From positions 1 through 64,000 of the forward strand of contig NZ_JACNMO010000020.1 of the NCBI RefSeq assembly GCF_020622345.1: DNA of 64,000 nucleotides. The letters run 5' to 3'. Each line of letters opens with the position of its first letter. Position 1 is the stretch's first letter. The position numbers and the translations under genes are program-made. The notes below the pieces were generated by a model. It saw nothing but the letters and a program-made list of their open reading frames with translations, searched no databases and was not told the DNA's origin. This stretch comes from Roseobacter weihaiensis. GTDB taxonomy: Bacteria > Pseudomonadota > Alphaproteobacteria > Rhodobacterales > Rhodobacteraceae. Shown piece after piece: positions 5,002 through 51,576 of this stretch.

Positions 5002-5928
5002 ATGACCCTGCACGAACCTGACACACGCTCCGCCACAGCCCTCGTCCTCGACGAGTTGCAGCTCTTCGGACACCGACCGTTTGCCGACGAGCCCGATCCG
5101 CGGCCACTGCCAGACGCCAGCAGCGTCGAAGGCGCGATCGCCGACATCTTCGACGCGCTTGTCGTCGCTCTCGGCGACACGCGGCTCGAACCCGATCTTG
5201 AAGACCTGCTCTGGTCGATCGCAAACGTCTTTCATCGCATGGCGACCCACATCGATCGCAAGCTCGACGACAATGAACAGGCGCAGCGACGCGCGCAGCG
5301 CAGCCAGGACGGGTCCGAAGTCCGCTCGGTCGAACTGGAGCTCCTCATTGCCGAAGGTCTCACCCTCACTGAACAACGCAATGCCTATGAGGGCATGCGT
5401 GATCTGGCCGCCGAGCATTTCGAGGCGCATCTCGGACAGACCTGGCATCCGCGCTCCGGCAGCCACACCAATCGCAAGCACATGACCGCCGCGATGATCG
5501 ACAGCCGCGACTATCTCGATGCCAAGCGCAAGTCAGAACTCGAACCGTTGCTTCCCACAGGTACTAAGATCGCCTTCACTGGCGGACAGGACGTGGGCGA
5601 CACCGGTGCCATCTGGGCGGCACTTGATAAGGTGCGCGCCAAGCATGACGACATGGTACTCCTGCATGGTGGGTCGCCCAAAGGCGCGGAACGCATCGCG
5701 GCCTGCTGGGCCGACAATCGCAAATGCCAACAGATCGTCTTCAAGCCGGATTGGACGCGCCACGGCAAGGCCGCGCCGTTCAGGCGCAACGATCAACTCC
5801 TGGAAACCCTGCCGATCGGTATGATCGTGTTCCCGGGTTCGGGCATCACCGACAACCTTGCCGACAAAGCCAAAGTGCTGGGCATCCCGCTCTATGATTT
5901 CCGCGCAACGAAAGGCGGATCGTCATGA
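5002..5928 (+). CDS. DUF2493 (SLOG-like) domain protein
   Basis: A 308-residue soluble protein. The C-terminal part, about residues 185-300, is a DUF2493 domain: a KIAFTGGQDVGD start, a LLHGGSPKGAER segment and a late IVFPGSGIT strand. These are features of a Rossmann-like SLOG nucleotide-binding fold. The N-terminal half is helical and charged and is found only in mobile-element versions. The ATG at 5002 has AAGGAGG at 4985-4991. It follows the primase-like gene by 347 bp, and that gap contains no convincing gene. The ligand is unknown; SLOG domains elsewhere bind nucleotide-derived molecules. Confidence 0.75.
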   Translation: MTLHEPDTRSATALVLDELQLFGHRPFADEPDPRPLPDASSVEGAIADIFDALVVALGDTRLEPDLEDLLWSIANVFHRMATHIDRKLDDNEQAQRRAQRSQDGSEVRSVELELLIAEGLTLTEQRNAYEGMRDLAAEHFEAHLGQTWHPRSGSHTNRKHMTAAMIDSRDYLDAKRKSELEPLLPTGTKIAFTGGQDVGDTGAIWAALDKVRAKHDDMVLLHGGSPKGAERIAACWADNRKCQQIVFKPDWTRHGKAAPFRRNDQLLETLPIGMIVFPGSGITDNLADKAKVLGIPLYDFRATKGGSS

Positions 5929-5944
5929 CCCGTGATGCGTATAT

Positions 5945-6000
5945 CGCATCGCGATGCGCCACACGGGAATATTCCGCGAACACCGCGGATATGCTATACT
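5945..6000 (+). promoter_or_regulatory. promoter with a perfect palindrome and an overlapping inverted repeat
   Basis: A perfect 14-bp palindrome, CGCATCGCGATGCG, lies at 5945-5958. Downstream, TCCGCG (5973-5978) and CGCGGA (5984-5989) form a six-base inverted repeat in the spacer just upstream of TATACT (5995-6000), a good -10 box. The layout suggests a repressor-controlled promoter for the membrane protein gene at 6053. The regulator is not identified. Confidence 0.5.
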
Positions 6001-6052
6001 TTATTAGTGCCGTGGCGGTGGTGGAGGCGCATCCCATGAGAGGAGACCGCCC

Positions 6053-6523
6053 ATGTTCGTATCAGCCTTCCTAAGTGTCATCGGCCTCGGCTTCCTCGTC
6101 TGGGTGTTGTTCGCACTCGCTGTCTACGCGCTGCCCGCCTTTGTCGGGATGAGCGTCGGCATGTATGTCTACGACACCGAGGCGGGCGTGATCGCGGCAT
6201 TCGTCGCAGGCATGTTCGCAGCCGTCTTCACTTATCTCATCGGCCAGATCGTCTTCGCCAAGGTCCGGTCCGTGCCCATCCGTCTCGCCATCGGCGCGCT
6301 CTTCGCGGCGCCTGCCGGCGTCGCCGGTTTTTCCGCGATCAAGGGCCTGTCGCAGATCGGGGGTGCTTCCGAAACTTGGACACTGGCATTCGCGATCATC
6401 GGCGGGATCGTCACCGCTGGCACCGCCTGGGTGCGGATCGCAAGCCTCGCCGGCCCCATCGGCGAGGATGATGGGCAGCAAACAGACGCCATGCAGGCGA
6501 GTTCGTTCGCGAACGATCGCTGA
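6053..6523 (+). CDS. small multi-span membrane protein
   Basis: A 156-residue protein made almost entirely of hydrophobic segments: about 5-38, 45-66, 75-98 and 106-125, with a short hydrophilic tail. It should be an integral inner-membrane protein with about four spans. GAGAGGAGA precedes the ATG. I do not recognise the family. Its own promoter-like region upstream and its place between the ICE maintenance genes and DUF736 suggest an element-encoded membrane factor of unknown function. Confidence 0.65.
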   Translation: MFVSAFLSVIGLGFLVWVLFALAVYALPAFVGMSVGMYVYDTEAGVIAAFVAGMFAAVFTYLIGQIVFAKVRSVPIRLAIGALFAAPAGVAGFSAIKGLSQIGGASETWTLAFAIIGGIVTAGTAWVRIASLAGPIGEDDGQQTDAMQASSFANDR

Positions 6524-7090
6524 AACCTCACCATTTCCGAAGACCCGACATCACGGAATGGCGCAGGTCAGGTTAAAGTTCGGACGCGAGCGGGCGGCAG
6601 AACGCGTGTGATCTCATTCGATGGCTTCATCCAGTCACAACACATATCGAACACCGCCAAAACCCGTTGAGAAGAAGCATTCTCGCGTTTCTGGACGTGC
6701 TCAACGACAACACCGCTCTGCGCCGTTCTGCACGCTAGAGCCTGTCTTTCCCCGATCGACATTGCCGGTGGATTGCCCGGTCCGAGGGTGGCCGTCATTT
6801 TTCATCCCATGCCCTCGTCACCCGCGTCCGTCACGGCCTCTCAATGGGCTGATCTGACCGAGATCGGCTGACGCCTCGACCGCCTCAGCCGCAACGCCGG
6901 GTTCGGACTTTCTTCCCCTGGGCTTCGCCCATTCCTCGCGGGACGACCCCGACGGGTCCAAGAAAGTCCACCCCCCGCGTCCTCCGCATGCGCTGCGGGC
7001 CAAGGGCTGCGTCGGCGGATCGTCCCGGTCCTGACGATCGCCATCGAGACCGCGACGGGCGCGGGATCGAAACCCAATAGGAGAAATGAC
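6524..7090. other. 567-bp gap with no convincing gene
   Basis: The open frames here on both strands look like shadows: proline/arginine-rich translations without motifs or ribosome binding sites. GC-rich text precedes DUF736, and the last 20 bases supply its ribosome binding site (AGGAGAA at 7079-7085). No tRNA or repeat was seen. Confidence 0.5.
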
Positions 7091-7426
7091 ATGGCCACCA
7101 TCGGAACCTTCAAGAAGACCGGCAACGAATACGTCGGAGAAATCGTCACCCTCAACGTGCAGGCGCAGAACGTCCGTATCGTCCCCGAGGAAAGCACCTC
7201 CGGCGAGAACGCCCCCTCCCACCGGGTCTTCGTCGGCCGCGCCGAGATCGGCGCCGCCTGGTCGAAGCGCTCAAACGAGAGCCGCGACTATCTGAGCCTC
7301 AAGCTGGACGATCCGAGCTTCACCCAACCGATCTACGCCAACCTCTTCGATGACACGGTCGTCGAAGGCGGCGAGGAAACCTTCAGCCTCATTTGGTCCC
7401 GGGCGCGCCGCAAGAACGACGACTAA
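7091..7426 (+). CDS. DUF736 family protein
   Basis: A 111-residue protein of the DUF736 family, recognisable from the MATIGTFKK start, the central NVRIVPEE segment and the AAWSKRSNESRDYLSLKLDD segment near 60-80. DUF736 proteins are small, conserved in alphaproteobacterial conjugative elements and linked to the RlxS/Trb gene set, but have no proven activity. A strong ribosome binding site (AGGAGAAATGAC) precedes the ATG. It stands alone and is followed by a stable hairpin, which suggests a single-gene transcript. Confidence 0.9.
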   Translation: MATIGTFKKTGNEYVGEIVTLNVQAQNVRIVPEESTSGENAPSHRVFVGRAEIGAAWSKRSNESRDYLSLKLDDPSFTQPIYANLFDDTVVEGGEETFSLIWSRARRKNDD

Positions 7427-7438
7427 GCACCGCGACAT

Positions 7439-7468
7439 CAGCCCCGCCCGGGAGACTGGGCGGGGCTG
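7439..7468 (+). terminator. hairpin after DUF736
   Basis: CAGCCCCGCCC (7439-7449) and GGGCGGGGCTG (7458-7468) form an 11-bp GC stem with an 8-base loop, 12 bp after the stop codon. There is no T run, so it may stabilise the 3' end or terminate inefficiently. Confidence 0.6.
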
Positions 7469-7568
7469 CATTGCTGGTAGAGGCCGCCGACCGCTCGGGC
7501 CCAACCCTCCAAAATAACGTGAGATGGTGAAGGTCGGCTTTGAACAAGTCTCGTGATAAGCTCATCGC

Positions 7569-7982
7569 ATGACCGACAAGAAGAAGCCCACACATTCGTC
7601 GAGCACAAATCCGTACATCCCCAAGGGTGATGGTGATGAAGCCGTGCAGGCGTACATCTCCGCGATGCCCGGCTGGAAAAGTACCCTTGGCAAGCAGATC
7701 GACACAATCGTCGAGAACGCCTTCCCAAAGGTACGCAAGCAGGTGCGGTGGAACACGCCGTTTTACGGCAAGGACGACGGCTGGTTTCTGGCGATGTACT
7801 GCTACAAGAACTACGTGCAGATCACCTTCATGACCGGGTCTTCTCTCGATCCGGTGCCTCCCAAAGCATCTAAAGTAGAAGGCACTCGGTATCTGGACAT
7901 TCACGAAGATGACGTACTCGACAAGGCGCAACTTGCAGACTGGGTTCGACAAGCCCTGACGCTTCCGGGTCAGCAGCTTTAG
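7569..7982 (+). CDS. DUF1801 domain protein
   Basis: A 137-residue soluble protein of the DUF1801 (YdhG-like) family. The diagnostic features are an early VQAYISAMPGW helix and the central RKQVRWNTPFYGKDDGWFL stretch around residues 58-77. The family is widespread and mostly uncharacterised; some members are linked to iron or stress. It is expressed alone between the DUF736 hairpin and the convergent XRE regulator. The stop lies 64 bp from the 3' end of that gene. Probably cargo rather than transfer machinery. Confidence 0.8.
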   Translation: MTDKKKPTHSSSTNPYIPKGDGDEAVQAYISAMPGWKSTLGKQIDTIVENAFPKVRKQVRWNTPFYGKDDGWFLAMYCYKNYVQITFMTGSSLDPVPPKASKVEGTRYLDIHEDDVLDKAQLADWVRQALTLPGQQL

Positions 7983-8045
7983 GGCGCTATTCAAATCAAC
8001 AGGAGGAACGGCAGCGATGTCCCGCGTTGCCGTCAATTCAGCAGT

Positions 8046-8282
8046 TCATTTATCAACGACGTTTTGGCTTTCGCCTCGGTCTTCCAACAACGCAGATGGC
8101 TCCACGTCTAGTGCCTGCGCGACATGCCAAAGCGTCACGATCGTGACGTTCTGCTGACCGCGCTCCATCGCGCTGACATGTGCGCGATCAATACCCATTT
8201 TTACCGCAAGCGCGGCTTGGCTCATGTTTGCTTGAGTCCGGTAATGCTTGAGATTGTTACCAAATGTGTGACGGATATCCAT
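8046..8282 (-). CDS. qseC: XRE/Cro-family repressor, QseC-like
   Basis: A 78-residue single-domain helix-turn-helix protein: NLKHYRTQANMSQAALA at residues 11-27 forms the first helices, IDRAHVSAMERGQQNVT the recognition helix region, and a short tail follows. It is divergent from a DUF2285 gene, and an FseA-like two-frame gene follows. That is the arrangement of QseC-QseM-FseA, which represses and licenses excision and transfer of the Mesorhizobium symbiosis ICE. By that precedent it binds the intervening operator and controls both its own gene and the antiactivator. A frameshifted paralogue lies at 41862-42087. The symbol is assigned by context and family, not by direct alignment. Confidence 0.7.
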   Translation of the reverse strand: MDIRHTFGNNLKHYRTQANMSQAALAVKMGIDRAHVSAMERGQQNVTIVTLWHVAQALDVEPSALLEDRGESQNVVDK

Positions 8283-8295
8283 CCGTCGACAAAGG

Positions 8296-8333
8296 CCTAT
8301 CGCGTATTTTAGTGCGACGCGCTATAATACGCG
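8296..8333. promoter_or_regulatory. qseC-qseM operator/promoter with nested dyads
   Basis: CGCGTATT (8301-8308) and AATACGCG (8326-8333) are perfect inverted repeats. Inside them TAGTGCG and CGCGCTA (8310-8324) form a second, near-perfect dyad. A TATAAT -10 box lies at 8323-8328 reading toward the DUF2285 gene. The 24 bases 8296-8319 are identical to 42102-42125 beside the decayed qseC copy, which argues that this is the XRE protein's binding site. Confidence 0.65.
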
Positions 8334-8457
8334 GAACGGCAGGCGTCGGTGTGAACCGACAGCGGGAAAACGACCGTTCAACTGTCGGATGGTTGCCAGC
8401 ACAGGCTACAATAAGGCACTAACCAATGACACGGGTACGCGCTTGAGGGGGAAAGAA

Positions 8458-8730
8458 GTGACAAAAAAGAACGCCAACGACTTTGCCGATACTCCCCCCA
8501 CAGGCACTTCCGTCACCGACTATGACCGGCGGCATCTCATGCTCTATACGCGATTGCTCGACGCAGAGGCGGACGGCGCACCGCTGGATGAGATTGTCCG
8601 AATCCTGTTCGGCGTCGATGCGAGCAATGATCCGGAACGCGCCCGAAGGCTGCATGACGGGCACCTTCGACGCGCGCATTGGATGACCGAGAACGGCTAT
8701 CGCGATCTTCTCCATTCGCAAGCCACCTGA
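8458..8730 (+). CDS. qseM: DUF2285 protein, QseM-like antiactivator
   Basis: A 90-residue protein that is essentially one DUF2285 (RovC DNA-binding type) domain, ending in the family hallmark HLRRAHWMTENGYRDLL. QseM, a stand-alone DUF2285 protein, binds and inhibits the activators TraR and FseA in the Mesorhizobium ICE. Here the same size, family and divergent XRE neighbour are seen. I prefer the GTG at 8458 because GGGGGAAAG sits directly before it and because the decayed second copy starts at the equivalent place with ATG; an in-frame start at 8389 has no such site. The last 63 bp are part of a tandem duplication. Confidence 0.7.
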   Translation: MTKKNANDFADTPPTGTSVTDYDRRHLMLYTRLLDAEADGAPLDEIVRILFGVDASNDPERARRLHDGHLRRAHWMTENGYRDLLHSQAT

Positions 8731-8921
8731 CAAGAATTCAAAGATGCAGTGATGCGCTCGGCGCATCGCCATATGCCACCTGTACCCCTACAAACGACGC
8801 GCGCATTGGATGACCGAGAACGGCTATCGCGATCTTCTCCATTCGCAAGCCACCTGACAAGAATTCAAAGATGCAGTGATGCGCTCGGCGCATCGCCATA
8901 TGCCACCTGTACCCCTACAAA
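8668..8921. repeat. perfect tandem duplication of 127 bp
   Basis: Bases 8668-8794 and 8795-8921 are identical, head to tail, with no mismatch I can find. The first copy contains the last 63 bp of the DUF2285 gene plus 64 bp of downstream sequence; the second repeats that gene tail without a start. Perfect identity implies a recent slippage or unequal-exchange event. Confidence 0.95.
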
Positions 8922-8995
8922 TTCCCGTTTAGCGCGAGAATATTCATCGATCACCGGTCGCTATCCTGCACCGGCTTTTCGTTGGAGGTGCAGTC

Positions 8996-9725
8996 ATGTC
9001 ACAAAACTGGCGCAGTGAAGCCGACTACGATTACATCAAGGATCTCGACGCATCCGGTCTTGCTTGGGAGTGTCTGAGGCGCAATCCGCGCTATCGGAAT
9101 GCCTTCGCAACCATGTCCGATGCCGAAGCGGCCGACTGGGGGTTGCGATTTCCCGGTCGATCCAGAGCTGCGCGCAACGGACGCGCGCCTCTATTGGAAG
9201 CCCACGGTCGCGCCCGCCGTTTCCGTCCTTGTGTCCGCCATATCCGATGAGCGAATGCCGTCGATCCGACTCGATCGCATCATCCTTCAAGTGCGACGGG
9301 GGCGTAACGGGAGGCATTGGGCCTGTCTGCGGACAGGCTTGGTCTTGGTGTCCGACAACTCGTTCGTCGCTGAAAAACCGCTCGGAATCCTGCTCCCGCT
9401 CGATCCCGATTGGTCCATCCGCATCGACACCGCGCAGCGTCTGAGAACCGTCTGGCGCGGTCGCAAAACGCCTTTTTGGTTCACGGATCAACGCCGACGT
9501 CGCATCGGTCATGCGCTGCGAACGACCGACGCGCAGCAAAGCGGTGCACATCTGCGCGACATCGCCATAGCCTATTTCGGAGCAGGTCGAATTGGCGCAG
9601 AACCCTGGAAAACAAGCGCCTTGAAGGCGCAGGTGGCACGTCTTGCAAGATATGGTCAGGTGCTCGTCAGCGACGGTTATCGTCAGCTGTTGCGCGGAAA
9701 GACAGCAGCCCGGTCGCAAGAATAG
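8996..9725 (+). CDS. fseA: two-frame DUF6499/DUF2285 activator, FseA-like, joined by +1 frameshift
   Basis: Two overlapping frames encode what is normally one regulator. Frame one starts at ATG 8996 (GGAGGTG upstream) and gives the DUF6499 N-terminus, WRSEADYDYIKDLDASGLAW and RNPRYRNAF, stopping at 9250. The +1 frame carries the rest, through DPELRATDARLYW to a DUF2285 C-terminus ending in YGQVLVSDGYRQLLRG at 9725. Homology passes from one frame to the other at 9149-9158. In the Mesorhizobium symbiosis ICE the same two domains are fused by a programmed +1 ribosomal frameshift to make FseA, the activator of rdfS. I therefore read this as a functional two-frame gene, though a simple inactivating indel cannot be excluded. 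Confidence 0.7.
9149..9158 (+). promoter_or_regulatory. candidate +1 ribosomal frameshift site
   Basis: In the upstream frame the codons read TTT CCC GGT CGA; homology continues in the +1 frame as CCG GTC GAT. A tRNA-Pro on CCC slipping forward one base to CCG would give F-P-V-D-P, which matches the expected protein join. CCC followed by G is a plausible +1 slip site. Inference from the frames; not demonstrated. Confidence 0.55.
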
Positions 9726-9748
9726 CTGCTTTCACGGAACCCTGACAT

Positions 9749-9780
9749 GATGTTCGACATCCCATCAAATGACCAGATGT
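9749..9780. promoter_or_regulatory. dyad upstream of the rdfS-like operon
   Basis: GATGT-TCG-ACATC (9749-9761) is a perfect five-base dyad, and GATGT recurs at 9776-9780. It lies between the FseA-like gene and the RdfS-like operon, where the activator would be expected to bind. Weak evidence; the motif is short. Confidence 0.3.
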
Positions 9781-9913
9781 TGTCCGCTTTCGAGGGGTGA
9801 CGATTTTCGCCCGACACCTTCGTCATCCCCCTCATGTCCACTTCTCCGCTTCTCTGGCCATCAGCCGTCCCTCGCATCCCGCGACGGACCCGCGATGACC
9901 AGAGGAGCCCCAA

Positions 9914-10198
9914 ATGCCCGATCCGAATGCCGGCCTGCCGCCGCGCTATCTCAGAACCCCTGAAGCCGCCCGCTTTCTCGGCCTCTCCGGTCGGACGCTG
10001 GAGAAACACCGCACCTACGGCACCGGTCCGAAGTATTCCAAGATCGGCGGCCGTGTCGTTTACGCGGTCGAGGATCTGCAAGCCTGGGTCAGCCGTGGCG
10101 AGAAAAGCTCGACCTCCGACGACACGGGCGACACCGTCCTTCCGGCCAAACGCCATGCAGCAATCTCGCCGGCCTATAGCGGCGAGAAGCGCTCATGA
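9914..10198 (+). CDS. rdfS: AlpA/MerR-like winged-helix protein, RdfS-like excisionase candidate
   Basis: A 94-residue protein with a winged helix-turn-helix of the AlpA/excisionase type: YLRTPEAARFLGLSGRTLEKHR at about residues 16-37, then GGRVVYAVEDLQAWV as the wing and final helix. Proteins of this size and fold act as recombination directionality factors, turning the integrase toward excision. In the Mesorhizobium ICE rdfS heads the operon that contains traF, as here. The stop overlaps the start of the next gene by four bases (ATGA), indicating translational coupling. The symbol rests on fold and gene order. Confidence 0.7.
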   Translation: MPDPNAGLPPRYLRTPEAARFLGLSGRTLEKHRTYGTGPKYSKIGGRVVYAVEDLQAWVSRGEKSSTSDDTGDTVLPAKRHAAISPAYSGEKRS

Positions 10199-10659
10199 GC
10201 ACGCGCACGACCATCGAACTGACGTGGATCGAAGGGCGCATCGAACGCTGGCTGCGCTTCGGCCGGATCGCTCAGGAGACGATTCTGAGCCGATCGGTTC
10301 GCGTCGTCGGTGTCGATCCTGGCAGTATCTTCGCGTTCATCCGCTGGGCCGCGAACGACTATGGCACGGTCGAGAGTCGGATCGATATCTTGCAAGCCAT
10401 CCGCCTCGGCGAGCGCTTTTCGACGGTGCCTTTTGTGACGCCCGGCGGAACGTCTCTCCTGCGGCTTTCCGGCTGGCCAAAGGTAGAAGCAGTGCTGCTC
10501 TGCATCGACCAGATCGAGGCCGAACACATTGCGCCGGAGGACGTCTGTCCGGATCACTGGCGCCACGTCCACAATCGCCTCACCTGCAATCTCGAGCCGC
10601 ACCGCTACACGCCTTTTCGGCATGACGCCTGGCTCAAGAGACGGGCGCTGGCGGCATGA
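10195..10659 (+). CDS. DUF2840 domain protein
   Basis: A 154-residue soluble protein of the DUF2840 family, conserved between the excisionase-like gene and traF in alphaproteobacterial ICEs. Recognisable segments are WIEGRIERWLRFGR near the start and the LRLSGWPKVEAVLLCIDQIE segment near 92-112. The function is unknown. It overlaps its neighbours on both sides by four bases, so the three genes are almost certainly one transcript with coupled translation. Confidence 0.8.
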   Translation: MSTRTTIELTWIEGRIERWLRFGRIAQETILSRSVRVVGVDPGSIFAFIRWAANDYGTVESRIDILQAIRLGERFSTVPFVTPGGTSLLRLSGWPKVEAVLLCIDQIEAEHIAPEDVCPDHWRHVHNRLTCNLEPHRYTPFRHDAWLKRRALAA

Positions 10660-11168
10660 GACGCGCGCGCCCCTCGCTCCTCATCGGCAGCGCCGGTATC
10701 GCCTTGATCGCACTTTCGGCGATCATCCGCGCCAACCCTATCTTGGTCTGGAATGCGTCGGCCAGCGTGCCCATCGGCTTCTACGCCGTGCAGCCGCTCG
10801 ACGCCCCGACGGTCGGCGATCTCGTCGTCTTGGAACCGCCGTCGCCGCTCGGCGACTGGCTCCTGGAGCACGGCTATCTCGGCGCCGACGTTCCTCTCAT
10901 CAAGCATGTCGCCGCGCTTCCCGGACAGCGTGTCTGCCGCATCGGTGTCACCATCAGCATCGACAGCGAGACCGTCGCAACCGCCAAAGAACGTGACCGT
11001 TTCGACCGCCCGCTGCCGGTTTGGCAGGGCTGCCGTCTGCTGACCGACGATCAGATCTTCTTCCTCAATCCTGACACCGAGGCGAGCCTCGACGGACGGT
11101 ATTTCGGGCCGCTGACGCGCGACACAATCCTCGGTCGTGCGGTGCCGATCTGGACGCGGGAGGGCTAA
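10656..11168 (+). CDS. traF: TraF-type S26 signal peptidase
   Basis: A 170-residue membrane-anchored serine peptidase. One hydrophobic segment (about 8-25) is followed by the catalytic serine in SASVPIGFY (Ser37) and the general-base lysine in LIKHVAALPG (Lys83), the Ser/Lys dyad of the S26 family. In IncP-type systems TraF matures and cyclises the TrbC pilin; trbC lies 6.3 kb downstream. It belongs to the rdfS-like operon, overlapping the upstream gene by four bases and followed by the transglycosylase after 4 bp. Confidence 0.85.
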   Translation: MRRARPSLLIGSAGIALIALSAIIRANPILVWNASASVPIGFYAVQPLDAPTVGDLVVLEPPSPLGDWLLEHGYLGADVPLIKHVAALPGQRVCRIGVTISIDSETVATAKERDRFDRPLPVWQGCRLLTDDQIFFLNPDTEASLDGRYFGPLTRDTILGRAVPIWTREG

Positions 11169-11172
11169 CGCG

Positions 11173-11922
11173 ATGGCCTTCCTTCTCCCTTACGGCCGTC
11201 GTCTCATCGCCGCGTCCGCGATCCTGATCGCGCTTTCCGGTTGCGCCAATCCGCCCGCCGCCGACGCACAGGATACGGTCCCGCGCTTCACGGATACCAC
11301 CGCGCCGACCTCCGAAATCGACGCATATATCGCAGAAGCTGCCCAACGCTTCCGCATCCCCGAGCGTTGGATACGCGCTGTCATGCAGGCTGAAAGCGCG
11401 GGCAATGCGCGCGCCGTCAGCAGCGCCGGAGCGATGGGTCTTATGCAGATCATGCCAGGCACGTGGGCCGAGCTTCGTGCAGCCCATGGCTTCGGCTCGG
11501 ACCCATTCGATCGCCGCGAGAACATCCTCGCGGGTGCCGCTTATCTGCGCCAGATGCACGACCAGTTCGGCGCGCCGGGGTTTTTGGCTGCCTACAATGC
11601 TGGCCCCGGACGGTATGCCGAGCACCTGCGGACCGGGCGCATGTTGCCGCGTGAAACGCGCCGCTACGTTGCAGTCCTTTCGCAGGAGCTTGGCTTTTCG
11701 GATGCAGCGCCGTTGCAGCTGGCGCGCACCGTTTCTGCAGGTCGGTGGCAAGCTGCGCCGCTCTTCGCACCCGTCACAGCTTCTCGTGAACCACAACGCG
11801 GAGCCGAACCAGACCGCACATCGGTCGATGTTCAGACCGCAGAAAACCCGACCCAGCCGAATTCACAGAACCACCAACCGAACCCGCTTTTCGTCTCCAG
11901 AACCGGGGAGCCTGAGCGATGA
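11173..11922 (+). CDS. conjugal-transfer lytic transglycosylase lipoprotein
   Basis: A 249-residue SLT-family muramidase with a lipoprotein signal (LSGC lipobox, Cys24). The catalytic glutamate is in MQAESAGN (Glu74), followed by SSAGAMGLMQIMPGTW, the classic SLT motif. It would open the peptidoglycan for assembly of the mating channel. The last 60 residues are a Pro/Asn/Gln-rich disordered tail. The ATG at 11173 is preferred over 11137 because it begins the signal peptide and follows the TraF stop by 4 bp. Confidence 0.85.
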   Translation: MAFLLPYGRRLIAASAILIALSGCANPPAADAQDTVPRFTDTTAPTSEIDAYIAEAAQRFRIPERWIRAVMQAESAGNARAVSSAGAMGLMQIMPGTWAELRAAHGFGSDPFDRRENILAGAAYLRQMHDQFGAPGFLAAYNAGPGRYAEHLRTGRMLPRETRRYVAVLSQELGFSDAAPLQLARTVSAGRWQAAPLFAPVTASREPQRGAEPDRTSVDVQTAENPTQPNSQNHQPNPLFVSRTGEPER

Positions 11923-12169
11923 TCGCACCGATCTGGCTCCGCCCCGTTCCGTCGTGCTGGTTCGTATGGAATGCGGCAGATGGAGGATTGCAGCCCAAAT
12001 CAACGACGGGAGGGCAAGATAAAAGGCCGGACGCGCGGGGGCGCTACGGCGTTGTTGTTGTTGGGGTTTTTGCGTGCTGCACACTTGACTACAGTGCTGC
12101 ATTCACAGCTATCCCTCTGATTCTACTTAGCTTTCACCGTGCCATGCCTGACTTTGGGGACACACGAAC
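11923..12169. other. 247-bp gap before the relaxase, possible oriT or promoter region
   Basis: No convincing gene; an 84-residue open frame here lacks motifs. It contains TTGACT at about 12086 and two direct GTGCTGCA repeats around it, in text less GC-rich than the flanks. Because the relaxase starts at 12170, this is a reasonable place for its promoter or for the origin of transfer, but no nick-site motif is certain. Confidence 0.35.
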
Positions 12170-13924
12170 ATGAGCCAGCGCGATAAAGACATCCGCATCA
12201 AACCGGGACGCATCCGTGACAAAGGCCCCTCGGCCAAACGGGCGAAAAGCTTAGTCGGACAGGTCATGCGCGCCGCGAAGAAGGCGGGGCATACCGGCAA
12301 TCATTTCAGGACGAGCGGCAGTCGCGCTGGTCGGTCGACGTTTGGACGTGGACGCTTCGTGCGAGTCTCAAGAGGCCTCGCGCGAACGCAGCGCCGGGTT
12401 GTCGTGAATGCGCGTGTCGTCCGGCATCGTGGTCAGAAGTTTCGGTCGGCGCCCCTCGCCAAGCATCTCGACTATCTGAAACGCGAGGGCGTCGCCAAGG
12501 ACGGTCGGGATGCGGCGATGTTCGACAAGGAGCACGACCAGGCCGACGACCGCGCCTTCGCCACCGGCACCGAAGACGACCGGCATCATTTCCGCTTCAT
12601 CGTCTCGCCGGAAGACGCCGGACAGATGGAAGATTTACGCGCCTTCACCCGCGATCTCATGGCCCAAGCAGAGCGCGATCTCGGCACCGAGATCGACTGG
12701 GTCGCCGTCAATCATTGGAACACCGACAACCCGCATGTCCATGTGCTGGTGCGCGGCAAAGGCGATGACGGGAAAGATCTTGTCATCTCGCGTGACTACA
12801 TCAGCCGCGGGTTGCGTGGACGGGCCGAAGAACTCGTCGAGCTCGAACTCGGACCACGAACCGAGAAGGAGATCGCCGCCGGCCTCGATGCGGAGGTGAA
12901 AGCCGAGCGTTGGACCGGCCTGGATCGCGCGCTGCGGTCTTACGCCGATGACACTCTCGGCGTCGCCGACTTGCGGCTCGGCGCACCCGATCTCGACAAC
13001 AAAGACCTCAAGCGCCGGATGATCGGGCGCGCGCAAATGCTGGAACGGTTTGGGCTCGCCGAAAAACTCGCGCCCTCGGTCTGGCAGCTCAAGCCGGGCA
13101 TGGAAGACACGCTGCGCGAGATGGCCGTGCGCGGCGACATCATCAAGACGATGCATCGGGCGATGGGCAGCCAAGCGCGGACACCATCCGACTTCGCCAT
13201 CGAGGGTCAGCCGGACAATCCCGTCCTCGGCAAGCTGGTCGATCGCGGCTTGCACAACGAACTCTCGGGCGAAGCCTATGCGATCATCGACGGTGTCGAT
13301 GGCCGTTTCCATCACCTGCGCTTCCGCGATCTCGATCTGACTGGCGACACGCCCGTCGGCGGGATCGTCGAGACGCGGAGCTGGGCCGGGAAAGATAGTG
13401 GGGCGCGACGCCTTGCGCTGGTCGGGCGGTCGGATGTGGCGCTCGAGAAACAAGTCGATGCCGATGGTGCGACCTGGGTCGATCGGCTGGCGCTCGCCAA
13501 GACCCGCGCGCCACTCGCGCAGCGCGGGTTCGGCGCCGAGGTCCGCGACGCTTTGGAGAAGCGGGCCGAACATCTGGTCGGACAGGGTTTTGCGACGCGG
13601 CAAGGTCAGCGCGTCACCTTCAACCGCGATCTCCTGAAAACACTGCGCCAGCGCGATCTTGACAGAGCAGCGAGCAAGATCGCCGACGACACCGGCCTGC
13701 CATTCCGAACGTCCGGTGACGGCGAGACCGTAGCGGGGACCTATCGCCAGCGCCTCGATCTCGCCTCCGGCCGCTTCGCCATGATTGACGACGGGATGGG
13801 CTTCGAGCTTGTGCCCTGGAAACCGCAGCTCGAAAAGCATCTCGGCCAGACCGTCTCGGGCACCGTCACGGCCGGTGGCGGCATCGACTGGTCGCTCGGT
13901 CGCAAGCGTGGCCTGTCGATCTGA
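12170..13924 (+). CDS. rlxS: RlxS-type MOBP relaxase (DUF3363)
   Basis: A 584-residue VirD2/TraI-like relaxase. The likely nicking tyrosine is in HLDYLKREG (Tyr102), and the metal-binding motif is NHWNTDNPHVHVLV (His182, His189, His191). The long C-terminal DUF3363 region is typical of RlxS proteins of alphaproteobacterial ICEs. It would nick oriT, stay bound to the 5' end and pilot the strand through the Trb channel with the TraG coupling protein, whose gene starts 13 bp downstream. The N-terminus is very basic (many Arg/Lys in residues 1-95), fitting DNA contact. Confidence 0.9.
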   Translation: MSQRDKDIRIKPGRIRDKGPSAKRAKSLVGQVMRAAKKAGHTGNHFRTSGSRAGRSTFGRGRFVRVSRGLARTQRRVVVNARVVRHRGQKFRSAPLAKHLDYLKREGVAKDGRDAAMFDKEHDQADDRAFATGTEDDRHHFRFIVSPEDAGQMEDLRAFTRDLMAQAERDLGTEIDWVAVNHWNTDNPHVHVLVRGKGDDGKDLVISRDYISRGLRGRAEELVELELGPRTEKEIAAGLDAEVKAERWTGLDRALRSYADDTLGVADLRLGAPDLDNKDLKRRMIGRAQMLERFGLAEKLAPSVWQLKPGMEDTLREMAVRGDIIKTMHRAMGSQARTPSDFAIEGQPDNPVLGKLVDRGLHNELSGEAYAIIDGVDGRFHHLRFRDLDLTGDTPVGGIVETRSWAGKDSGARRLALVGRSDVALEKQVDADGATWVDRLALAKTRAPLAQRGFGAEVRDALEKRAEHLVGQGFATRQGQRVTFNRDLLKTLRQRDLDRAASKIADDTGLPFRTSGDGETVAGTYRQRLDLASGRFAMIDDGMGFELVPWKPQLEKHLGQTVSGTVTAGGGIDWSLGRKRGLSI

Positions 13925-24642: not shown

Positions 24643-25866
24643 ATGACCGGGACGGAAGATCAGCAACCAGATGAACGCCCCGACGACCCGCCGCGCTCGG
24701 AACAGGACATCGCCAGAGAACTCCGCTTGCGGCCGGATCCGCCGCGCGTCATGCGCCTCTCGCGCAAGGCCATCACGGTTCTCACCGTCGCAGGTGGGCT
24801 CGGCATCGGGGCGATCCTAATCGTCGCGCTGCAGGGTCCGGATCGGACCGATGGGCCAACTGAATTGTTTTCGACGGAACGCGTTCAAGAAGCCGAAGGC
24901 CTTCTGGGTCTACCGCGCGACTACGCGTCGATCCCGCAGCTCGGGCCACCGCTACCGGGCGAACTGGGACGGCCGGTTCTGTCTGCGCAGCGTCGGGGTG
25001 AGCCAGTGCCTGTCGTGCCCGCAACCGGCTCCGCCGTCGATCCGGACGAACAACTTCGCTTGCAGGAGGCGGAAGCGGCCCGGCTCGCGACGCTCTTCGC
25101 GGATGCAAGCTCGAGTGGCGCAGGTGCTGCGCGACCGCAGGCACTACCCGCAACATCTCCGGCGCCCGGATTGCAAGGTCTATTTCCGGCGTCAGCGGGA
25201 TCTTCGCGCCAGCCGGATGCGACAGAACGACAAGAGGCGTTTTTGGATCGAGAGGTGGATCGACGGACCACTGCCGCGGATCGGCTGCAGTCTCCGCCGA
25301 GCCCTTACGTCCTGCAAGCCGGATCCGTCATCGAAGCCGCGCTGCTGACAGGTCTGCGCTCCGATCTTCCCGGGCAGATCACGGCGCAGGTCACCGCGAA
25401 TGTCTATGACAGCCCGACCGGGCAATTCCTGCTGATCCCACAAGGGGCGCGGCTCCTCGGCGAGTATGACAGCCGCGTTGAAACCGGTCAGCGGCGCGTC
25501 CTCTTGGCGTGGACTCGATTGATCCTACCCGATGGACGTTCTGTCGTCCTCGAACGCCAGCCCGGGACCGACCAAGCTGGCTACGCAGGCCTCGAAGATG
25601 GTGTGGACAATCACTGGGGCCAGTTGTTCCGCGCGGCCGGTCTCGCCACGATTCTCAATATCGGGCTCGAGACAGGCGAGGATGGCGGCGATGACATTGC
25701 CGAGGCGATCCGCGACGGCACCCAGGATACGATAGGGCGCGCGGGCGAGGCCATCGTCCAGCGCCAACTCAACATCCCACCGACGCTTACGATCCGGCCC
25801 GGTTTCCCGGTACGCGTGATGGTGACGCGCGATCTCATTCTTGAGCCACATGGAGACATGCGATGA
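24643..25866 (+). CDS. trbI: TrbI, VirB10-like protein
   Basis: A 407-residue protein spanning the inner membrane once (about 44-64), with a Pro/Ala-rich periplasmic linker and a C-terminal VirB10/TrbI domain. Diagnostic segments include LQAGSVIEAALLTGLRSDLPG near 225-245 and LLIPQGARLLGEYDS near 265. It connects the inner and outer membrane parts of the mating apparatus. It overlaps the DUF2274 gene by four bases. Confidence 0.93.
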   Translation: MTGTEDQQPDERPDDPPRSEQDIARELRLRPDPPRVMRLSRKAITVLTVAGGLGIGAILIVALQGPDRTDGPTELFSTERVQEAEGLLGLPRDYASIPQLGPPLPGELGRPVLSAQRRGEPVPVVPATGSAVDPDEQLRLQEAEAARLATLFADASSSGAGAARPQALPATSPAPGLQGLFPASAGSSRQPDATERQEAFLDREVDRRTTAADRLQSPPSPYVLQAGSVIEAALLTGLRSDLPGQITAQVTANVYDSPTGQFLLIPQGARLLGEYDSRVETGQRRVLLAWTRLILPDGRSVVLERQPGTDQAGYAGLEDGVDNHWGQLFRAAGLATILNIGLETGEDGGDDIAEAIRDGTQDTIGRAGEAIVQRQLNIPPTLTIRPGFPVRVMVTRDLILEPHGDMR

Positions 25867-26108
25867 ACAGGTTAAAGCTCGGCGATATCCGCGACGAAAG
25901 GCCGATCAAGCTGACCGTAGAGCTACCGGCGGAAGTGCATCGCGACTTAACGGTCTACGCAGAGATTCTTGGCGCCGAGAACGGGAATAAACTCGAACCC
26001 GTAAAGCTGATCGCGCCTATGCTGGAGCGGTTCATGAAAACCGATCGCGGATTTGCGAAGCTCAGGAAAGAACGCCGTTCCGTTTCGCTTCGATCCGCCC
26101 AAGACTAA
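25863..26108 (+). CDS. DUF2274 protein
   Basis: An 81-residue soluble protein of the DUF2274 family (KLGDIRDERPIKLTVELPAE start), the usual last gene of alphaproteobacterial trb operons. A short beta strand followed by helices hints at a ribbon-helix-helix-like regulator, but no function is shown. Its last 47 bp overlap the 3' end of the convergent LysR gene. Confidence 0.85.
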   Translation: MNRLKLGDIRDERPIKLTVELPAEVHRDLTVYAEILGAENGNKLEPVKLIAPMLERFMKTDRGFAKLRKERRSVSLRSAQD

Positions 26109-26976
26109 TAAACCGACGAAGCGCCGGGTTGTCTGTTTCAGGACGCCAGGTCAACGAGAAAGGCACTCGTTCTTCTTCATTTCCGATCGGAACGAAACGA
26201 ACATTCGGGTATGTGACTCCCCGCCAGTGGTCAGTAACAAGGCATACACCCAGCCCTAGGCCGACGAGCGCCATGAGACCCTCGCGTCCGAGCTTATGAC
26301 GCTGAACCTGACTGTTACGCCATATATCAACCATGCATCGCAGAATATAATCGCTTACCTCTGGTCCTGGATCTCGATCACTTAGCAAGAGTGTCGCGTG
26401 GTGTAGATCGTGCACGCTGAGCTGATCAACGGTGGCCAAGGCATCACTAGATGGTACCGCAAGGAAAATCCGTTCGCGAGCTAGGACAAAACTATCCCCG
26501 CTCTCTGTTTCTGGCTCGCCAACCGCAATCATCGCGTCAATCTTCCGATGGCTCAGGTCTGTAAGCAAGCCGCCACGATCTGACTCTTTGATGCAAACGA
26601 CGACTTCAGGATGCGCTTCAAAAAATGAATGAAAGACATTGCGGATAGGGCCTCTTGAGAGCGATGCGATAACCCCGACACTTAGCCGTCCAGCACCAGC
26701 GGTTCCTTCGTGCTGCGCAGACTCTACCGCTACGTTCAAGTCATTTACAATGTACCGGACTCTCTCCGAAAAACATATGCCAGCAGGCGTGAGTCTTGCG
26801 CCGTTCGTCTGTCGCTCGAACAATGAAACACCCAGCCTGTCCTCAAGCTTTTGAATTCGTCGGCTCACGGATGATTGACCAATTCCAAGCTTACTGGCCG
26901 CTCTACGAAAACTGCCAGTCTCTGCAACGGCTAGCGCTGCAGTCAATTGGTGCAGTTCAACATGCTGATCTTTCAC
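26062..26976 (-). CDS. LysR-family transcriptional regulator
   Basis: A 304-residue LysR regulator: winged helix-turn-helix at about 8-66 (AALAVAETGSFRRAASKLGIGQSSVSRRIQ-type region) and a C-terminal effector-binding domain. It is convergent with the trb operon and overlaps its last gene. A LysR gene at this place follows trbI-DUF2274 in other alphaproteobacterial elements, so it may belong to the element backbone rather than to the cargo. It could equally regulate the redox genes upstream on the same strand. The ligand is unknown. Confidence 0.88.
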   Translation of the reverse strand: MKDQHVELHQLTAALAVAETGSFRRAASKLGIGQSSVSRRIQKLEDRLGVSLFERQTNGARLTPAGICFSERVRYIVNDLNVAVESAQHEGTAGAGRLSVGVIASLSRGPIRNVFHSFFEAHPEVVVCIKESDRGGLLTDLSHRKIDAMIAVGEPETESGDSFVLARERIFLAVPSSDALATVDQLSVHDLHHATLLLSDRDPGPEVSDYILRCMVDIWRNSQVQRHKLGREGLMALVGLGLGVCLVTDHWRGVTYPNVRFVPIGNEEERVPFSLTWRPETDNPALRRFISLGRIEAKRNGVLS

Positions 26977-27087
26977 TTTCCATAAACCCAGTTTGCTTCA
27001 GATCTTCTTTGCCCCCAATTCGATAGCCAGATTGTCCGAGTATTGATCCAAAGATCAGAGATCTGGTTCCATTTTAACTTCGCGCTC

Positions 27088-50070: not shown

Positions 50071-50247
50071 TTGGTCAAATGGCCTTTCCGAATTGCGCGA
50101 TAGAGTACGCTAGAGCACGATAAGAGACTGAAATACATTGATTTTCAGAACCCGCACTCCGAAGCCTCTATCCGAGGACACGCCCTGATTTCCGCCCGCT
50201 CACTTGCGTGTCGCTTGCGTGAAATGGGGTCTTCGAAGGACCGGAGC
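50071..50247. other. spacer between att site and integrase
   Basis: Contains no gene. A TTG at 50215 could start a longer integrase but lacks a ribosome binding site. Likely holds integrase promoter and arm-type binding sites; CACTTGCGTG and CGCTTGCGTG (50201-50220) are a direct repeat of the kind integrase arms bind. Confidence 0.4.
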
Positions 50248-51576
50248 ATGAGCAAACTGACGAAACGATTTGTCGAGTCTGTAACACCAAGAAGCAAGGG
50301 TCATGTCGTATGGGACGATGAATTGCCGTGTTTCGGACTTCGAGTCTATCCCTCCGGCAAACGAAGCTACCTTCTCCAATATAGAGCAAAAGGTCGCTCG
50401 CGGCGCTACACCATCGGACTCCATGGCGTTTGGACACCCGAGACCGCTCGTCGTGAAGCGAAGGCGTTGCTTGGCCAGATCGCTCAGGGAGAAGATCCTG
50501 CTGCAGAAAGAGAAGAGGAACGCCGTGCGGTGACCGTGCGGGAGCTCTGCGAACAGTACATTGTCGACATGGAAGCAGGCCTTGTTCTCGGGAAAGGCGG
50601 CCGCCCGAAGAAGGCGACTACCGTCGCGACCGACATCGGTCGCATCCGCCGCCACATCATCCCCTTGCTCGGCACTCGAAGGATCAAGGACATCACCAAA
50701 CCGGACATGAACAATTTGATGAAGGACATCATCGCCGGAAAGACGCGCGTCGTGATGAAGACGGAGAAGCTTCGTGGCAAAGCGATCGTCACGGGCGGTC
50801 CTGGCACTGCGATCCGCACAATGGGTCTCCTCGGCGGCATCTTCACCTACGCAATCGAAGCCGGGATCATCGACCAAAACCCGACCCACGGCCTGAAGAA
50901 GCCGCGATACAAGGTGCGGGACCGACGATTGAGTGAAGCGGAGTACCGGACGCTGGGTCGCATTCTTAAGGACGTGCAGCATGACAGCCACTTCGGCATC
51001 CACGCCGAGATCCTCCGCCTCATCGCCCTGACCGGCTGTAGGCGTGGCGAGATCATCAGCTTGCGGTGGAGCGAGGTCGACATCGAAGGCAGTTGCCTAC
51101 GTCTGAAAGACAGCAAGGAAGGCGCATCCGTCCGACCAGTTGGCTTGCCGGTAATCGACTATCTCGAGGCCGCGCGCTTGAAACGGGATGGGACGTTCGT
51201 CTTTCCCGGCCAGGGCGAGGACAACGCCGTCGGAAACTTCCCCCAGAGCTGGAAGAAGCTCCTTGCGGAAACACCACTGTGGGACGTGACGCCGCATGTC
51301 CTGCGGCATAGCTTCGCCAGCATCGCCAACGACCTCGGCTTCACAGAAATCACCATCGCCGCTCTAATTGGACACGCCAAGGGCTCCGTTACGAGCAAAT
51401 ACGTTCACACGCTGGATTCGACACTCATCATGGCAGCCGACACTGTGTCGGGCTACGTGAAGGCTCTTCTTGAAGGGGTTGAGTTCAGACGGAACACCTA
51501 CACCCTTGACCGGCAGACAAGGCGCAGCGCAATCGATGACATGCTCAGTGAAGCGAGGCCACGGAAGCTAGCCTAG
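50248..51576 (+). CDS. int: tyrosine-family site-specific integrase
   Basis: A 442-residue P4-type integrase: N-terminal arm-binding DUF4102 domain (FGLRVYPSGKRSYLLQYR near 29-46), core-binding helices and a catalytic domain. The catalytic residues are visible as Arg265 (TGCRRGE), His350-x-x-Arg353 (TPHVLRHSF), His376 (IGHAKG) and Tyr385. GGACCGGAG precedes the ATG at 50248. It reads away from the adjacent tRNA-Arg fragment, its predicted target. The long C-terminal tail (about 400-442) is basic. Confidence 0.93.
   Translation: MSKLTKRFVESVTPRSKGHVVWDDELPCFGLRVYPSGKRSYLLQYRAKGRSRRYTIGLHGVWTPETARREAKALLGQIAQGEDPAAEREEERRAVTVRELCEQYIVDMEAGLVLGKGGRPKKATTVATDIGRIRRHIIPLLGTRRIKDITKPDMNNLMKDIIAGKTRVVMKTEKLRGKAIVTGGPGTAIRTMGLLGGIFTYAIEAGIIDQNPTHGLKKPRYKVRDRRLSEAEYRTLGRILKDVQHDSHFGIHAEILRLIALTGCRRGEIISLRWSEVDIEGSCLRLKDSKEGASVRPVGLPVIDYLEAARLKRDGTFVFPGQGEDNAVGNFPQSWKKLLAETPLWDVTPHVLRHSFASIANDLGFTEITIAALIGHAKGSVTSKYVHTLDSTLIMAADTVSGYVKALLEGVEFRRNTYTLDRQTRRSAIDDMLSEARPRKLA

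Follow-up and report, generated by a model that had tools for sequence, protein, structure and literature searches.

What switches on a split, FseA-like transfer activator on a conjugative element whose contig holds no match to a quorum-sensing gene? The question is raised by a 64,000-nucleotide stretch of Roseobacter weihaiensis DNA (bases 1-64000 of contig C11, referred to here as the window; the genome comprises 5.35 Mb in 91 contigs), in which the backbone of a trb-type conjugative element spans base 1, where the contig begins, to approximately base 27,000. A preliminary description of this locus noted an XRE gene divergent from a stand-alone DUF2285 gene and followed by a DUF6499/DUF2285 regulator split across two frames, compared these genes with qseC, qseM and fseA of the Mesorhizobium symbiosis island, and proposed that the element uses the same quorum-sensing-type switch. 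All of these parts are present, and profile matches support the three family assignments. Membership of the activator in the published FseA/QseM family is supported by the sequence features that were tested, namely the domains, the +1 split, the context of the slip, an FseA-box-like repeat, and an acidic QseM opposed to a basic DUF2285 part of FseA; the frameshift is not a new mechanism. The new content is a conserved operator of a non-quorum kind, together with a LysR-type candidate for the protein that binds it. As far as the literature covered shows, control of fseA has been worked out only for quorum-sensing symbiosis islands, and a conserved operator whose position is constant and which precedes only two backbone genes offers a direct handle on what switches fseA on. 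The explanation that we develop, which as a whole appears evenly poised between right and wrong, is that the locus would act as a master switch of the FseA/QseM kind for an integrative conjugative element (ICE), wired to a different input.

The putative operator is a dyad, TGATGC-N7-GCATCG, located at 8877..8895 with its centre 110 bp before the fseA ATG. The second place of the same dyad is 5933..5951, centred 111 bp before a backbone gene on the plus strand (6053..6523) that encodes a hydrophobic, probable membrane protein with homologues in relatives and without a match in Pfam or NCBIfam. In the form YGATGC-N7-GCATCR, the dyad precedes fseA in 20 of 25 loci, beginning 115-121 bp before the ATG; among the 15 distinct 19-mers, the ten arm bases are invariant and most spacer positions vary, a pattern that suggests a protein-binding site and is unlike that of an RNA stem. 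Seven dyads are found in the 5.35 Mb of the R. weihaiensis genome, six of them on element copies (three before two fseA genes, two of these via a tandem duplication, and three before copies of the 6053 gene) and one within a long open frame on contig C1, compared to none for the reversed control pattern. Of 18 homologues of the 6053 gene with an identity of at least 63%, 17 are preceded by a perfect dyad and that of R. insulae (L049) by one that is one base off, in every case starting 118-119 bp before the start codon.

The position of the dyad relative to a possible promoter is conserved as well. A -10-like hexamer, AATATT (8939..8944, plus strand), starts 53 nt after the dyad centre, and hexamers at this same spacing are found in 16 of the 21 fseA promoters with the dyad (NA[TC]A[TC]T) and in 15 of 16 promoters of the 6053 gene (TAT[AGT]CT). 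This spacing would place the dyad centre near -65 from the predicted transcription start. A scan of 5850-9950 for the sigma-70 consensus found no match, with 1.5 expected by chance. LysR-type activators recognize dyads of the T-N11-A form, and their usual recognition position is -65. Given that ATGC-N7-GCAT has the T-N11-A form and that its centre is near -65, the dyad fits a LysR-type operator.

The trb cluster ends with a gene for a LysR-type regulator (26062..26976, minus strand; PF00126 and PF03466), which is the candidate activator of fseA. Matches to this protein at E<=1e-30, of which there are 39, are spread over 17 of 20 relatives; among the 30 whose surroundings were retrieved, trbI accompanies 24 in the same stretch and the DUF2274 gene alone accompanies one, two are located beside a homologue of the 6053 gene, and three have neither neighbour. 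The three genomes without a LysR match (G435, G436 and G437) also lack the dyad at fseA; with the window included, both LysR and the dyad are found in 17 cases, the dyad alone in none, LysR alone in one (L063, where the dyad is one base off) and neither in three. Nine elements have their LysR match on the fseA contig, 17-22 kb downstream of fseA; in eight of them the dyad is perfect, and in the ninth (L018) it is one base off. In one genome (G429), two LysR copies adjoin homologues of the 6053 gene, both of which have the dyad (L110 and L117).

From these patterns, fseA transcription might be switched on by a regulator, other than TraR, that acts at YGATGC-N7-GCATCR, and a single regulator would probably control the 6053 gene as well. 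That this regulator is the LysR-type protein from the end of the trb cluster, responding to a small molecule, is a tentative identification to which we assign slightly less than an even chance. Still more speculative is the extension to a broad set of alphaproteobacterial elements, in which the FseA switch would be run by a trb-end, small-molecule-sensing LysR protein instead of quorum sensing, with the sensor domain swapped or diverging and an ATGC-N7-GCAT (or TTGC-N7-GCAA) operator evolving in concert at fseA and one further backbone gene. Should this be the case, different elements would answer different chemical cues through one conserved core.

Several observations weigh against the LysR assignment, its extension or both. 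The Fisher test on the co-occurrence counts gives 0.003 with relatedness ignored, and the dyad-negative genomes represent approximately one FseA clade, so that the pattern might reflect one or two events. Five of the LysR matches at E<=1e-30 are only 31-39% identical, and in many genomes linkage of the LysR gene to the fseA gene in question is not demonstrated. The recognition helix of the LysR proteins varies while the half-site does not, and no such dyad, which autoregulation might lead one to expect, was found within the 180 bp upstream of LysR in six elements. Among 385 genomes of the class, searched with the DUF6499 profile alone, 25 yielded a match, and in ten elements a LysR match (30-36% identical, counted irrespective of any neighbouring trbI) shares a contig with fseA at a distance of 17-21 kb; of these ten, one (L023) has a perfect dyad, three (L021, L025 and L032) have a variant in roughly the corresponding position, and six have none. 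Similarly, the dyad precedes none of the eight 6053 homologues whose identity is 50% or less. When 11 more distant elements were fetched and the nine containing both genes were examined for a shared dyad, one was found in two (L147 and L148), and the test, which relied on mononucleotide shuffles and was not corrected for nine comparisons, failed in the other seven. In L148, from another family of the class, CTTGC-N7-GCAAG and CTTGC-N7-GCAAC precede the two genes (1 of 200 shuffles), which looks like the half-site of one operator changed in concert at both promoters; in this element, the distance to a -10-like hexamer departs from the 53 nt seen above.

Some of these observations are accommodated by the best-surviving alternative, under which the dyad is real but is bound by a different protein, such as a host factor, a CopG-like protein or another protein of the element, and the link to LysR is due to hitchhiking. 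This alternative deserves serious attention, although we favour it less than the LysR assignment: the half-sites stay fixed while LysR falls to 31-60% identity, and six of the ten class-level elements have LysR without the dyad, but the T-N11-A form and the -65 position suit LysR-type activators under the general rule given above, and the dyad has only one site in the genome outside element copies. Two further candidate binders fail to track the dyad and were rejected: ParB is present in two of the three genomes that lack both the dyad and LysR, and QseC is encoded in the loci of two of these three.

A second alternative retains the quorum control that the preliminary description had proposed, with a chromosomal LuxR/LuxI pair activating fseA in trans. 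We consider this unlikely. LuxR and LuxI matches are located side by side on contig C57 (with further matches to LuxR on C13 and to LuxI on C79), and a LuxI match is present in 18 of the 20 module-carrying relatives; however, judged by contig number, length or coordinate, these LuxI matches are on contigs other than that of fseA, except in the L050 genome, where about 650 kb separate the two, an argument that is weak where the fseA contigs are short, as several are. Moreover, two genomes (L056 and L061/L065) have no LuxI match genome-wide, and the dyad is absent from C57. There is also no match to a LuxR-type receptor or LuxI on the element contigs C10 or C11, of which C10 ends inside fseA. 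The proposal that this element uses the same switch therefore stands in part: the families, the +1 split, the slip sequence and the FseA-box-like repeat before an rdfS-like gene all support it, but the quorum-sensing label is not supported for this element on the present evidence, in view of the missing LuxR/LuxI matches on C10 and C11, the two relatives without LuxI and the element-tied dyad in the fseA promoter.

It is slightly less probable still that fseA lacks a promoter of its own and is read through from qseM, with the dyad acting as an RNA hairpin or attenuator. The two genes are on one strand and are separated by about 120-150 bp in the aligned loci (266 in the window), and the dyad could pair in RNA. 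The arm bases never vary, however, the spacer lacks the co-variation of an RNA stem, no T-run follows the dyad in the aligned gaps, and the same dyad at the same spacing precedes an unrelated gene; the hairpin reading was rejected because the spacer does not co-vary.

Other sequence elements were observed around these promoters. Immediately after the dyad of the 6053 gene, at 5951-5975, there is an extra half-site, GCGATGCG, and a palindrome, GGGAATATTCC, which are kept in most of 12 aligned loci. The FseA loci L067-L070, which are devoid of the dyad, have another common stretch, AAGTTGT, before fseA, and in L047 and L016, another T-N11-A-like dyad, GTGTC-N9-GACAC, is located about 148 bp before the DUF6499 match.

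The activator itself is encoded in two frames on the plus strand. The first, 8996..9151 up to the slip codon, belongs to a frame that runs to a stop at 9250 (8996-9250; PF20109, DUF6499, over residues 4-53, E 1e-18), and the second, 9153..9725, consists of a middle part and DUF2285 (PF10074, E 2e-26) in the +1 frame, the open frame of which is listed as 9099-9725. When TTTC (9149-9152) is read as a single Phe codon, the result is one 242-aa protein that matches both PF20109 and PF10074 and contains the motif AWECLRRN, fitting the FseA-type AWExLRRN; the +1 register at TTT CCC G (9149..9155, plus strand) is thus borne out. A second copy on contig C10 of the same genome is split at the identical place. 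We surveyed 64 loci in one script, including two own copies, 24 loci from named genomes, four plasmid loci and 34 loci from two profile searches (with the repeats L017, L006 and L007 left out), and found 52 split genes, all 52 in the +1 frame, and eight single-frame genes; four remained unclassified by motif, of which L034 and L046 appear to be split, with a long +1 frame, and L019 and L045 appear to be single. The preliminary description had named single-frame close relatives or an unconserved slip sequence as grounds for doubt, but all 24 named-genome loci are split in the +1 direction with TTT CCC, in a set that is biased toward split genes inasmuch as one of the six peptide patterns used in that search covers the slip site. 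The class sample is free of this bias and comprises 28 non-own loci, among which there are 19 split genes (all +1) and nine single-frame genes, several single-frame loci being weak profile matches. The share of split genes is close to the published value of about 61% of 4,709 FseA homologues that need the +1 slip (PMC10359603).

The codons around the slip are frozen: across 51 sites, TGG is found in 51, GGG in 42, TTG or TTA in 44, CGA in 36 and TTT in 49, whereas TTT and CGA are both minor codons in eleven backbone genes of the window, with shares of 14.7% for Phe and 6.3% for Arg, respectively. The TGG and GGG codons form a Shine-Dalgarno-like TGGGGG (9137..9142, plus strand), and UGGGGG upstream of the slip is named as conserved in PMC10359603. 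The base that follows the slip codon is C in 49 sites and T in two, so that it is a pyrimidine in all 51, and the next 0-frame codon varies (CCC in 34, CGC in 11 and others in six). Since C or T as the next base lets tRNA-Phe re-pair on UUY and the following 0-frame codon varies, P-site slippage at UUU appears to be the best description, the mechanism indicated by the comparison being +1 re-pairing of the Phe codon. We are highly confident in the view that full-length FseA would be made only if tRNA-Phe shifts by one base, from UUU to UUC, aided by the upstream UGGGGG, and that most ribosomes would end early and release a short DUF6499 peptide. Two split fseA genes (L013 and L029) have TGT in place of TTT and are a misfit to the simple rule of re-pairing on UUU. 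Downstream RNA structure gave nothing convincing as a stimulator of the slip, with 50, 80 and 110 nt folding at z of -1.2, +0.9 and +0.6 against mononucleotide shuffles.

Decay of a frameshifted pseudogene, which two open frames and a nearby tandem duplication indicative of recent change might at first bring to mind, has a negligible chance of explaining the split and was rejected on the grounds of conservation, given that 52 loci share the split and the frozen codons, that the own copies show a third-position bias and that programmed frameshifting has been published for this family (PMC10359603). Before and after the slip alike, most changes between the two own copies affect the third codon position (counts by position of 1/2/6 and 1/2/8). 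In the comparison with the R. insulae copy, the bias in the part after the slip is weaker (5/8/11, with 10 synonymous and 13 non-synonymous codons), and selection after the slip is less clear. A profile of seven fused proteins matched RovC (PDB 6xz5) at E 1e-8 over the whole chain, with the best stretch at 174-231 and none passing alone, and a single-sequence AlphaFold model of the fused protein was too poor to use (predicted local distance difference test score 34.9).

The genes upstream of fseA appear to form the restraining part of the switch. The XRE-family, QseC-like regulator (8046..8282, minus strand; PF01381, E 7e-13, and PF13560) has a tblastn homologue in 21 of 24 named loci, in each case upstream of qseM, and in the other three (L070-L072) the stored DNA is short on this side. 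The QseM-like antiactivator is encoded by a lone DUF2285 gene (8458..8730, plus strand; PF10074, E 1e-8) within an open frame of 8389-8730, the likely start being the GTG at 8458, which follows GAGGGGGAAAG and yields a protein of 90 aa. This protein contains NGYRDLL, with the GY motif, and has 12 K/R versus 15 D/E residues, compared to 19 K/R versus 8 D/E in the DUF2285 part of FseA; acidity was judged here by residue count only, and an acidic QseM and a basic DUF2285 part of FseA have been reported for the R7A pair (PMC10359603). Between the two divergent genes, GTATTTTAGTGCGACGCGCTATAATAC (8304..8330), which overlaps a -10-like TATAAT, is a candidate QseC operator, and in this gap GTATTT and TGCGACG are kept together in 22 of 24 aligned loci, L064 and L065 being different. 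By homology, QseC and QseM would very probably keep the element quiet, QseC by controlling qseM from the divergent promoter and QseM by binding the DUF6499 part of FseA.

An exact 127-bp tandem duplication (8668-8794 and 8795-8921, together 8668..8921) involves the 3' end of qseM and the upstream fseA operator; as a result, the second dyad stays at the normal distance from fseA and the extra dyad (8750..8768) is 127 bp further up. Neither the C10 copy nor the aligned relatives have the duplication, which might also be due to an assembly error.

On the output side, an FseA-box-like inverted repeat, TGACGA-N16-TCGTCA (9798..9825), is located upstream of the rdfS-like gene (9914..10198, plus strand; HTH_17, PF12728), the first of the transfer genes. 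In 23 of 25 loci, the repeat conforms to TGACG[AT]-N15/16-TC[AG]TCA and is located 114-117 bp upstream of the rdfS-like ATG; the exceptions are L068, where it is one base off, and L072, the locus with the lowest FseA identity in the named-genome search. The published FseA box consists of two inverted hexamers with a 15-16 bp spacer (PMC10359603), and rdfS is the first gene of the traF operon, which precedes oriT and rlxS, in R7A as well as in numerous ICEs and plasmids (PMC11963761). It is thus very likely that FseA, once made, would bind TGACGA-N16-TCGTCA and turn on rdfS and the transfer genes. The order of XRE (minus), lone DUF2285 (plus), split fseA (plus) and rdfS-like gene (plus) is kept in the 24 named relatives and in plasmid pAtK224b as far as the stored DNA reaches, with XRE found in 21 of these 24, the lone DUF2285 gene in 23 and the rdfS-like gene in 23; in some relatives, inserts of 1 to 4.7 kb precede rdfS.

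Among the closest known systems, ICEMlSym-R7A of Mesorhizobium japonicum, which we compared by its published description, shares with the present element the DUF6499+DUF2285 activator made through a +1 slip in a WGL/UGGGGG context (PMC10359603), the lone DUF2285 antiactivator with a helix-turn-helix regulator beside qseM, and the FseA box, with hexamers 15-16 bp apart, before an rdfS gene that heads traF and the transfer genes (PMC10359603, PMC11963761, PMC8627217). Gene order is one difference, contrary to what had been assumed: in the Mesorhizobium island, traI2-msi172-msi171 are located upstream of the divergent qseC/qseM pair (PMC5882170), whereas here fseA follows qseM on one strand instead of traI2. 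In addition, the element described here has no LuxR/LuxI match on its contigs, has the conserved GATGC-N7-GCATC operator, and encodes a DUF2840 protein between rdfS and traF, which is absent from the symbiosis ICEs and present on the other ICEs of the same study (PMC8627217); its trb-linked lysR is not among the 17 backbone genes listed in PMC8627217.

A close parallel in gene order is plasmid pAtK224b of Agrobacterium tumefaciens K224, which encodes ParB-toprim-DUF2493-hypothetical-DUF736, then XRE-DUF2285-(fseA), and then rdfS-like-DUF2840-S26-slt-DUF3363-traG-trb-DUF2274-LysR, and contains both dyads and the FseA box. In contrast to the element in the window, it is plasmid-borne, has additional genes in the DUF736-XRE and fseA-rdfS intervals, and lacks the tandem duplication; fseA is missing from its PLSDB gene table.

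LysR-type control of ICE transfer has precedents. In ICEclc of Pseudomonas knackmussii, the ICE-encoded LysR-type protein TciR activates core transfer genes (PMC4063739), although this is another ICE family, and FseA and frameshifting are not named in the covered part of that article. In ICEAc of Azorhizobium caulinodans, the flavonoid-responsive LysR protein AhaR, described along with RihR and RihF1, promotes transfer, and RihF1b/RihF1a are homologues of msi172/msi171; AhaR acts on intC, however, not on rihF1, and the authors state that programmed ribosomal frameshifting and traR are absent there (PMC9601964). Among the papers returned by our searches of an open-licence library, judged mostly by title and opening of the abstract, we recognized none that links a trb-linked LysR to fseA.

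The remaining backbone genes include those for ParB-like, DUF2493-type and DUF736 proteins, regulators, the rdfS-like protein, DUF2840, signal peptidase, transglycosylase, relaxase, coupling protein, Trb proteins, DUF2274 and LysR; those outside the profile scans were named from the matching annotated order on pAtK224b. The genes at 10195..13924 (plus strand) encode DUF2840, a TraF-like S26 peptidase, a lytic transglycosylase (assigned by position and the annotation of the relative) and an RlxS-like DUF3363/relaxase, the others being Pfam assignments, in the order annotated in pAtK224b. A tyrosine integrase is encoded at 50215-51576. No tRNA was found in the window, and Pfam scans that covered part of the genes turned up no drug resistance, for which no specific search was made. 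The DUF2274 gene (25863..26108, plus strand; PF10038) follows trbI and is convergent with the LysR gene, the 3' end of which it overlaps by 47 coding bases; the C-terminal LysR residues in the overlap are conserved in six aligned elements. Finally, the copy of the regulatory region on contig C10 of the same genome (L005) breaks off with the contig inside fseA, and contig C17 (L089) contains a copy of the region from DUF2493 through the dyad to the 6053 gene; thus, the genome appears to hold two or three related elements or remnants thereof.

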